NCBI RefSeq assembly: GCF_007993755.1
Contig: NZ_CP042467.1
Span: 4,550,001 to 4,614,000, forward strand
Direction: 5' to 3'
DNA from: Microvenator marinus
GTDB taxonomy: Bacteria > Myxococcota_A > Bradymonadia > Bradymonadales > Bradymonadaceae
Length of the DNA: 64,000 nucleotides
In this document: positions 49,777 to 53,195 of the stretch, piece by piece
Numbering within the stretch: position 1 is the first letter of the stretch
How the letters are laid out: the number at the start of each line of letters is the position of its first letter
Notes under the pieces: generated by a model
Seen by the model: only the letters and a program-made list of their open reading frames with translations
Database searches by the model: none
What the model was told of the DNA's origin: nothing
Translations under genes and position numbers: made by a program

Positions 49777-49791
49777 GGTGTGATTCACACC
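49777..49791. promoter_or_regulatory. palindrome upstream of the frameshifted lipoprotein gene
   Basis: GGTGTG-ATT-CACACC is a perfect inverted repeat with a 3-base centre, 27 bases before the ATG. It lies just downstream of the proposed promoter, so it may be an operator or the first hairpin of the leader. No regulator gene is adjacent. Confidence 0.4.
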
Positions 49792-49818
49792 CCTTTCGAG
49801 AAGGACCAGGGAGGATTT

Positions 49819-51202
49819 ATGAAGAATCTGACAATGTGCGCGACCATTTTCACACTCGTGGGCTGTGCCCCCCCCCCTAGAAGACGAGCTTAATGTGACT
49901 CGGCATCAGGAACTTTCGTCGACTCACATCTTCAGTCATGCCCCAGGGCTAAGTGGGTCGGGATTTTGGCAGGCTGAGTCCATTGTGGTGGATTCGTCCG
50001 GCAATTCGTATGTGCTCGGCGACTTTTCGGACAATAGCAGTCTCTCGTTTGGATGCACGGGGTCCCTCAGCAATCCTCAGTACTCGCAACGAGATATTTT
50101 TCTCGTCAAGTTTGACGATGATGGGGATTGTGTCTGGCAAATTTCACTTGGAGATAACGCGTCCTCTCAGATTACTGAGTCTACCTCTTACACTGCAGCT
50201 GACCTCTCCATTACACCGAACGACACAGTTGTTGTGGCACTCAACCAATACTTCATCCCATTCGGCCCAGGCGACTACGCCCGCACGATGGGCTTTTTTG
50301 AATATGACGGCTCCGCAAATCTGGTATGGTCAGACGTCTTCACTGCCTTTGCGGACACCAACAAGAATGTGGTGGCGATCGCAAGCGGTGACGATGACGT
50401 CTACGTACTGAGATGGGGTCCGCGCTCAGGGTCAAGCAGAACCCAATCGTGGGCTGAATCCTTCGGTGGCCTTGGGTCGAATCAGCCTGCGGACGTCGCT
50501 ATCGATCAGGACAACGGGGATATTGCGATTGTTGGCAACTACGACGACGAGCACACAGATTTGGACTCCAACGCAGGCAACTCAACGGATACAAACGCCA
50601 TCTTCATTCAGACGCTCGAGTCCGACGGGACTCCTATTACCTCTCTAACGAGTAACATGGCCTCTGGAGAGTACGGAGTCGCCACCGCGACAGCATTTGA
50701 TACCGACTCTGAGCTTTATCTCGCAGGCTACTTCGAAGGCGAAATCATACGAAACTCAGGATTGGCTCCGACGTTCTTCACTTCGAGTCTCACTTCCAAT
50801 GTCCAAGATGGGCTCTTGATTCGTTACGACAGCGCTAGCCTCAGTTCGGTCAGCATTAGCGGCCACTCGAACGATTCAAGCACAAGAGAAGAAATCCTTG
50901 GGATCTCCGCACCGTTCAACAACGTTGTAGTTGTTTCTGGTGAAACTTGTTCGGTGGTTGAGTGTGTGCCTTCAGGATTCACACACGAGTTCACCGGAAG
51001 CTACACGAAACCGACTAGCTACCTCATTGAGTACTCTAGCGAGAATTATCGGTTCAACGATGTCTTCTCTACGTACGGCTCCAGTTTTCTGATTTACGTT
51101 GTCGGTCAAGCTCGAGGAATCAATATTGACCTTGGGGGAGATGTACTAACGGGTGGTCATGATTTGGTGGCGGCTTATGAGATTACACCTGATGATGACT
51201 AA
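49819..51202 (+). CDS. beta-propeller-type lipoprotein, frameshifted at a ten-C tract (candidate phase-variable)
   Basis: AGGGAGG precedes ATG 49819, which opens a good lipoprotein signal, MKNLTMCATIFTLVGC. The Cys is followed at once by ten C (49868-49877). Read as given, this frame stops at 49891-49893 after 24 residues. The long body lies in another frame, open from 49865 to 51202. With nine or twelve C the two join as a lipoprotein of about 460 residues. The body has SBBP/NHL-like propeller repeats (DIFLVKFDDDGDCVWQ; VVDSSGNSYVLGDF). Its length and lack of stops argue it is under selection. Explanations are slipped-strand phase variation (now off), a recent mutation or a sequencing error. 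The next gene overlaps its end, so its expression may depend on this frame. Confidence 0.72.
49868..49877 (+). repeat. homopolymeric C tract of ten bases
   Basis: Ten consecutive C begin two bases after the lipobox Cys codon. A run of this length is unusual in the window and is of the kind used for slipped-strand mispairing in contingency genes. At ten C the signal peptide is out of frame with the long downstream body; at nine or twelve C it is in frame. Confidence 0.9.
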
Positions 51203-53195
51203 GCTATTGTTTCTCACGAGTCGGCTATTGGTCCTTTTGCTCGTTGCGTTGCCAGGGTACGCCTCGGCATGGCTTCCTGTTCCGTTCCAGGTCACAGGCC
51301 CTCAATATGAGCCGCGTCTGCCTTTTGGAGATGCCGATGTCAACGATGATGGATATGACGAAATCCTCGTAGGCAGACTCTTGTTCTTTGGTCGCTCCTG
51401 GGGAGCCGATACGAGACCTGTTGAAGTAGTATCGGATTCGGACCTGCAGAGCTCGAACTTCGCCGGTGATCTCAACGGCGATGGGTTTGATGATGCCATC
51501 TTCGTCCATGGAAACGGAAGTCAGAACGCCGTAGCTACGGTATACTTGGGGTCCCCATCGGGCTTGCATTACCAAGAGTCATTACCTCTCCCAGTCACTC
51601 AGGCAACGATTTTCCCGATTGGTGATATCAATGGAGACGGTTTCGACGACATTGCATTTTCCGAGCCTAAACTTGGCTCCTCTCCAAGTTGTGCACTAGC
51701 GGACTTCTTGAAGGTGTTCATTTACAGCGGAGGCGCTGAAGGTCTTGAAGATAGTCCAGCCACCGTGTTGGAGGCTGAACGAGCACAAGATTGCTTCGGG
51801 ACTTGGGTGGAAGGAGGAGACATCAATGGCGATGGGTACTCAGATGTGGTGGTCTTAGCGTCCGGATTTCGTGACAATCTCGACAACCAATTTCAAAGAG
51901 GCAAGGTCTACGCCTTTTTCGGGAGCCCAGATGGGATAGAGCTCACAGCGGACTGGGAAGCACGACCTAATGATCAACTGACCGATTTCGTCTTCGGATT
52001 TCAGAGGCAGATTTCTATCGCCGATGAAGATGGAGATGGGTTCGACGATCTTCTCTTGGTATTCGGACTTTTCGAGAAGGATGAAGGATCGTGCTTTCAC
52101 TACATATATCCTGGTACTTCTTCAGGCATTGGATTGCCACGACGGCACCTGAGTAGTTGCGGTTCAAGGATTTCTTGGGCTGGAGACATCGATGGAGACG
52201 GATTGCAGGATCGCCTCAACTCCGGCGAGTACTACCCGACGCCACAGACGATCAGCACCCATCTCTATCTAGGGGTCAACCCTTCTGAGTCTGCCTGGAA
52301 TACAGGATCGAGAGACGATGCGTTTCCGGTTGGCGATGTAAATGGGGATGCCTACGATGACTTCGCGACTTGGAGTTCAAGCCCAGCAGGCTTTGACCTT
52401 CGTTTGTACTTTGGACGGCCTAATCCAGTGCCGGTAGCCGACCGGCAATCAGTGTCCCTCCCCCAAAACTCAGACGTCGACATTACGCTGAGCGGAAGCG
52501 ACCCCTACAACGACTTGCTATCCTTCAGGATCGAGCGCGAGCCTGAGCACGGCAGGTTGGAGGCGTTTTCACCCAGCCTCGGGTTGGTGCGCTACATACC
52601 CAACTATGATTACTTCGGGCCCGACTCATTTGAGTTTGCAGTGCTCGACCCCTATGGGGGTGTGGGTACGGCTGAAGTACTCATTGAAGTGGGACGTTTG
52701 AATACAGCGCCGGTTTTTGTTCCTCCCACTCCTTCAACGCCGGTCATCGTTCGGGTCGGGGAGGAGTTGAGGTTGGTCGTTCGTGCCGAAGATGCGGAAG
52801 AAGATGAGGTGGAGTATTCGGCCACAGGGTTGCCTTGGAATGCCGAGTTTGATGCTGAGACAGGCGTAACTTATTGGACTCCTGACCAGAGCCAACTCGG
52901 GCCTGACACGTGGGTGTTTAGTGCGTCAGATGGCACTGATACCGTGACTCGATCAGTAGTTCTGGTGGTAGAGGAGGCGACTCCAGATCCACCGATAGAA
53001 CAGGATATGGGCTCAGCCGACCAGGGGATCCCCACCTTGCCAGTGGACTCCGGCCAGGGGCCGAACTCCATCGCGGACCAAGGCTGTGGCTGCGCGAGCA
53101 CGAAAGGCGGACCATGGATGTTGGTCTTTGTGTTTGCGTTTTCTCTTCGTCGTCGCCGATCGCGTTCTCACGATGTATATCGCATGGATGCGTAG
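51192..53195 (+). CDS. FG-GAP repeat protein with MYXO-CTERM tail
   Basis: A 667-residue exported protein. After the signal (MTKLLFLTSRLLVLLLVALPGYASA) come six or more FG-GAP type repeats with Ca2+-binding D-x-N-x-D-G-x-x-D cores (DLNGDGFDD, DINGDGYSD, DIDGDGLQD, DVNGDAYDD). An integrin-like propeller is expected. Two cadherin/Ig-like modules follow (VADRQSVSLPQNSDVDI; NTAPVFVPPTPSTPV). The end, QGCGCASTKGGPWMLVFVFAFSL then four Arg, is a MYXO-CTERM sorting signal. The start overlaps the end of the frameshifted lipoprotein gene by 8-11 bases (ATG 51192 or 51195), so translation may be coupled to it. The frame continues into the next gene's start. Confidence 0.87.
   Translation: MMTKLLFLTSRLLVLLLVALPGYASAWLPVPFQVTGPQYEPRLPFGDADVNDDGYDEILVGRLLFFGRSWGADTRPVEVVSDSDLQSSNFAGDLNGDGFDDAIFVHGNGSQNAVATVYLGSPSGLHYQESLPLPVTQATIFPIGDINGDGFDDIAFSEPKLGSSPSCALADFLKVFIYSGGAEGLEDSPATVLEAERAQDCFGTWVEGGDINGDGYSDVVVLASGFRDNLDNQFQRGKVYAFFGSPDGIELTADWEARPNDQLTDFVFGFQRQISIADEDGDGFDDLLLVFGLFEKDEGSCFHYIYPGTSSGIGLPRRHLSSCGSRISWAGDIDGDGLQDRLNSGEYYPTPQTISTHLYLGVNPSESAWNTGSRDDAFPVGDVNGDAYDDFATWSSSPAGFDLRLYFGRPNPVPVADRQSVSLPQNSDVDITLSGSDPYNDLLSFRIEREPEHGRLEAFSPSLGLVRYIPNYDYFGPDSFEFAVLDPYGGVGTAEVLIEVGRLNTAPVFVPPTPSTPVIVRVGEELRLVVRAEDAEEDEVEYSATGLPWNAEFDAETGVTYWTPDQSQLGPDTWVFSASDGTDTVTRSVVLVVEEATPDPPIEQDMGSADQGIPTLPVDSGQGPNSIADQGCGCASTKGGPWMLVFVFAFSLRRRRSRSHDVYRMDA

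Follow-up and report, generated by a model that had tools for sequence, protein, structure and literature searches.

We believe that a run of ten cytosines (C10) placed directly behind the lipobox makes one lipoprotein gene of the marine predatory bacterium Microvenator marinus V1718 slippage-prone and phase-variable, and that the gene was sequenced in its off state. Our probability for this reading is about 0.55, and the gene is presented here as a candidate contingency locus.

Structure of the split gene

The V1718 genome is a single contig of 5,847,748 bp (PMC11509652); "the window" below means the whole 64-kb stretch of it that was analysed, G000:C1:4550001-4614000. The features under discussion have the following positions in the window.

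49777..49791, strand not assigned: perfect palindrome GGTGTGATTCACACC, 27 nt 5' of the start codon
49808..49815, + strand: Shine-Dalgarno-like AGGGAGGA, read from the sequence
49819..49893, + strand: signal-frame ORF in its present state (start, signal peptide, lipobox LVG-C, stop after 24 aa)
49868..49877, + strand: C10 homopolymer, 1 base 3' of the lipobox Cys codon
49865..51202, + strand: out-of-frame body of 445 codons, beta-propeller-like
51192..53195, + strand: next gene, an FG-GAP/Ig-like protein with a MYXO-CTERM signal

From 49808 to 49893 the order is AGGGAGGA-ttt-ATG...LVG-TGT-G-C10-TAGAAGACG...TAA. Translation of the signal frame from the ATG at 49819 to the TAA at 49891-49893 gives MKNLTMCATIFTLVG followed by CAPPPRRRA and the stop, i.e., 24 aa. 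The segment MKNLTMCATIFTLVG with the subsequent Cys has the usual traits of a bacterial lipoprotein signal (a positive n-region, a hydrophobic core and a lipobox ending in Cys), with a single Lys and a short core; on the strength of the lipobox, the fused protein would be located at the surface. The body frame is open from the GTG at 49865 to the TAA at 51202 and corresponds to the +1 frame relative to the signal frame. An alternative start that would give the body its own signal was considered and rejected: an in-frame stop is found 12 codons 5' of the tract with no signal between, so the body lacks a separate signal peptide. While the gene is off, the mature body stays unattached.

The number of C in the tract was then changed in silico. 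Nine C give a protein of 460 aa and twelve give 461 aa; products of 19-25 aa are obtained with 8, 10, 11 and 13 C, and single-unit changes toggle the frame between the full-length and the truncated protein. The original prediction had described a ribosome site, a signal ending in LVGC, ten C, a stop after 24 residues and a body of about 445 codons, which proved exact in every detail; its proposal that nine or twelve C would fuse the signal and the body, and that the present state is off, agrees with these computed lengths and with the 24-aa product of C10.

We propose the following mechanism. Replication slippage (slipped-strand mispairing), known from hpuA and pilC of Neisseria, would alter the length of the C tract by single bases; every third length would join the signal peptide and the lipobox Cys to the propeller-like body in a lipoprotein of about 460 residues, and the remaining lengths would lead to a stop within 25 residues. 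We infer that slippage at C10 may be reversible, that the neighbouring gene may be coupled, and that surface display and some benefit may follow. Both mutS and mutL are present and intact in V1718, so that switching may be slow and need not be frequent.

The nature of the body is less clear-cut. A profile search assigns it a weak SBBP/NHL similarity, which is beta-propeller-like. Its likeness to the SBBP beta-propeller lipoproteins of the LipL53 family (NF047494) is weak and covers part of the profile only; the score is 40.5 bits against a curated cut-off of 400, and membership in this family was rejected. The structure predicted without an alignment has a pLDDT of 33, too low to be useful, and a profile search of solved structures gave short matches, all of them to designed proteins of the propeller type (SAKe). 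The GTDB scan returned no close relatives of the body. As to the upstream region, the palindrome is the sole match in the window even with two mismatches (0.14 expected), and is a possible operator; scans with promoter consensus sequences gave no match above chance.

The tract against the genome background

The next-longest C/G run in the window is 6. Over the whole genome, C/G runs of length 7 number 54 and those of length 8 seven, two of which belong to a CRISPR array; length 9 is absent, length 10 occurs twice and length 13 once, so that the lipoprotein C10 is one of three C/G runs of at least 10 in 5.85 Mb. The genome avoids C/G runs of at least 7 in coding regions: synonymous-codon resampling in a 464-kb sample gives 21 expected coding runs of 7 against 2 seen (about ten-fold rarer). 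This sample was partly picked to include two long tracts, and genome-wide counts were therefore used for those tracts. For runs of at least 10, extrapolation of the observed decay from 7 to 8 gives 0.14 expected against 3 seen (P ~4e-4), and P becomes ~0.02 if the decay is set to a milder 0.2 per base. The C10 is thus a long homopolymer in the 5' part of a coding sequence and an outlier for its genome, as is characteristic of contingency genes. The resulting Ala-Pro-Pro directly after the lipobox Cys (CAPP) occurs in none of the 32 sampled V1718 lipoproteins.

It could be argued that the tract was miscounted in the assembly, and that the cell has an in-frame tract with the gene simply on. C10 is the type of site where base callers fail, and the published pipeline is loosely described (PMC7460792); on the other hand, the same paper reports both Illumina HiSeq and PacBio SMRT for V1718 (CP042467.1). 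Of the coding C/G runs of 7-10 in this assembly, 36 others were checked and every one sits in an open frame: 35 runs of 7-8 and the second C10 (5807805-5807814), which is inside an open frame of 239 codons. Even with a count off by one, a tract of at least 9 at that place would stay unusual. We consider such an error unlikely and retain the phase-variable reading.

Two side observations concern the same counts. The second C10 (L018:1501-1510, G000:C1:5807805-5807814) belongs to an open frame adjoining a PMT_2 glycosyltransferase gene; its homology to relatives mostly begins after the tract, which leaves the state of this gene uncertain. A large CRISPR-like array with the repeat GCTTCAATGGGGCCGCATCCATGCGGATGCGGAGGG is found at about G000:C1 4,657,600-4,662,300 (L014 and L015).

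The homologue, the next gene and the parallels in relatives

Among 189 genomes of the phylum, a full-length homologue of the lipoprotein is found only in G087, which represents another genus of the same family. There the lipobox FTGAC is joined in frame to the body with no tract, and the identity is 34% over the alignment. The V1718 body aligns end to end with this intact lipoprotein and has no other lesion. The FG-GAP/Ig-like gene is next to the lipoprotein gene in both genomes, in the same order. Considering the in-frame homologue and the conserved next gene, the fused form is most likely the true gene, in line with the earlier claim that the tract splits one lipoprotein gene.

In V1718 the ATG of the next gene (51192) overlaps the body stop (the TAA ending at 51202), and we presume that this gene is probably translationally coupled to the body. 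Since it starts on the body stop, the off state may also reduce the FG-GAP neighbour, which would be anchored at the surface; in the proposed mechanism the lowering of this coupled protein is a probable accompaniment of the off state. In G087, one open frame (L160:11062-13863) spans the FG-GAP protein and continues into the apparent signal peptide of the next lipoprotein, which is a possible frameshift or fusion.

The lack of a tract in the homologue bears on two other explanations. One is a plain recent loss of function: the tract would have grown by one base, leaving the strain with a young pseudogene and no evolved switch. In its favour, one indel would account for all the features, the strain (V1718) is a laboratory-isolated type strain, the one full-length homologue does not share the tract, and singletons in frameshift surveys are usually indels or errors (PMC3711429). 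Against it, the rest of the body is undamaged, two independent parallels exist at the same site with one of them also off (see below), and a real C10 is expected, from other bacteria, to mutate often in both directions whatever its origin (PMC1891110). We find simple decay rather unlikely.

The other explanation is recoding, in which the ribosome or the RNA polymerase slips on the C run and some full-length protein is made with no change in DNA. Runs of CCC-CCC allow +1 slippage of the proline tRNA, and the body does sit in the +1 frame. Programmed sites are conserved, yet the G087 homologue has no such site, and the parallel in G043 differs in the tract length and the frame relation. A programmed ribosomal frameshift gene was rejected on account of the tractless homologue, and recoding in general appears to us very improbable. 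The phase-variable lipoprotein remains our preferred reading; further weight comes from two other genera, in each of which a lipoprotein has a tract at the corresponding post-lipobox site, and in one of these the gene is likewise out of frame.

These parallels were found by scanning the relatives for a Cys followed by a C/G run within a few bases; the hits fetched were tested for a lipoprotein signal.

G043, L296:4091-6454 on the - strand, G043:C16:23932-23955: split subtilase lipoprotein, C13 after the lipobox
G112, L090 / L315:3891-5195, G112:C5:311973: orphan lipoprotein, LSS-CGE with G9, in frame

G043 belongs to a different genus; here C13, a length taken from a draft assembly, comes after the lipoprotein signal MGRFKIFAFVAGVVLSG-CVA, and the signal frame stops a few codons past the tract. 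The body (787 aa, Peptidase_S8, E = 2.7e-14) is in another frame than the signal, and its 3' end is overlapped by a second lipoprotein gene. This subtilase lipoprotein is unrelated to that of V1718 and has the same split architecture, also out of frame. The G112 lipoprotein, from a third genus, has its G9 five bases past the Cys codon, and a 38% homologue in another MAG (L317) has no tract. Judged by sequence, the same tract architecture recurs in relatives, being predicted off in G043 (C13) and on in G112 (G9).

We examined 75 C/G tracts of at least 9 in ten genomes of the family; in three of them, those of V1718, G043 and G112 described here, the distance from the preceding lipobox Cys codon is at most 7 nt. 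About 0.04 are expected under random placement with the lipoprotein density taken from sampled V1718 genes, and the count was made post hoc. Post-lipobox linkers tolerate Pro and Gly runs, so that the enrichment may reflect tolerance rather than selection; together with the post-hoc count, this indicates a preferred place and leaves its cause aside. It is tempting to propose, tentatively and with considerable doubt, that Bradymonadales predators repeatedly evolve a C/G-tract switch after the lipobox Cys of unrelated lipoproteins (propeller, subtilase, orphan), perhaps with a coupled neighbour too.

Several broader proposals failed. Most long C tracts in other relatives are intergenic or in frame inside genes; therefore long C tracts by themselves are no mark of switches, and a genome-wide C-tract switching system in most relatives was rejected. 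A simple phylum-wide pattern of a lipobox with C8 was rejected as well, since most matches are not lipoproteins (L139 and L165 were discarded as further cases for the same reason); the genuine Myxococcota lipoproteins with C8-C9 at this place (L134, L149, L152 and L171) are all in frame. Separately, in G008 and G132 (L113, L310), runs of G9/C9 precede the start of a lipoprotein by a few tens of bases, and these are possible expression-level variants.

Related systems and biological meaning

The best-documented examples of homopolymer switching come from host-associated pathogens and are usually explained by immune evasion. Should the repeated evolution proposed above be real, it would mean phase variation in predators that live free of any host immunity, and it may have to do with prey defence, kin recognition or phage. 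Tracts recurring behind the lipobox in such predators would allow one to ask what selects for switching where there is no host. Annotators are also warned that genes of this kind will probably be entered as pseudogenes or as proteins without a signal.

As a principle, homopolymer switching is general and has been known for a long time (PMC2831843). The novelty would lie in the organism group and in the recurrence of tracts immediately after the lipobox. A search of the open-licence literature yielded no article that connects phase variation with Bradymonadales, nor any report of homopolymer switching for Myxococcus itself, so that the statement in the original prediction that contingency genes are rarely described in Myxococcota/Bradymonadota fits this limited search.

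The closest known case is hpuA of Neisseria, which encodes a 37 kDa lipoprotein and is switched by a poly-G tract inside the reading frame (PMC3786947). As part of the HpuAB haemoglobin receptor, it is likewise a lipoprotein gene switched by an intragenic homopolymer, with a partner protein (HpuB); it differs in having G instead of C, in being an unrelated protein and an iron receptor of a pathogen, and in that the variation is proven in many isolates. Neisseria pilC has a poly-G tract in the region coding for the signal peptide, with translational on/off switching (PMC13190605). The pilC1/pilC2 genes resemble our case in this switching by a tract near the signal-peptide region; in contrast to it, their tract is within the signal peptide and the product is a pilus adhesin, not compared here as a lipoprotein.

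In Bordetella pertussis, C tracts of about 8-15 at genes for surface and exported proteins are polymorphic in length (PMC1891110). The likeness to V1718 consists in C tracts at such genes; the best-known fim cases are promoter tracts, however, and their closer analogue in V1718 is the C13 tract (L005:1501-1513, G000:C1:4284631-4284643), longer than any other C/G run in this genome. It is located 81 nt 5' of the gene for a secreted orphan protein of 179 aa and is a candidate promoter-spacing switch.
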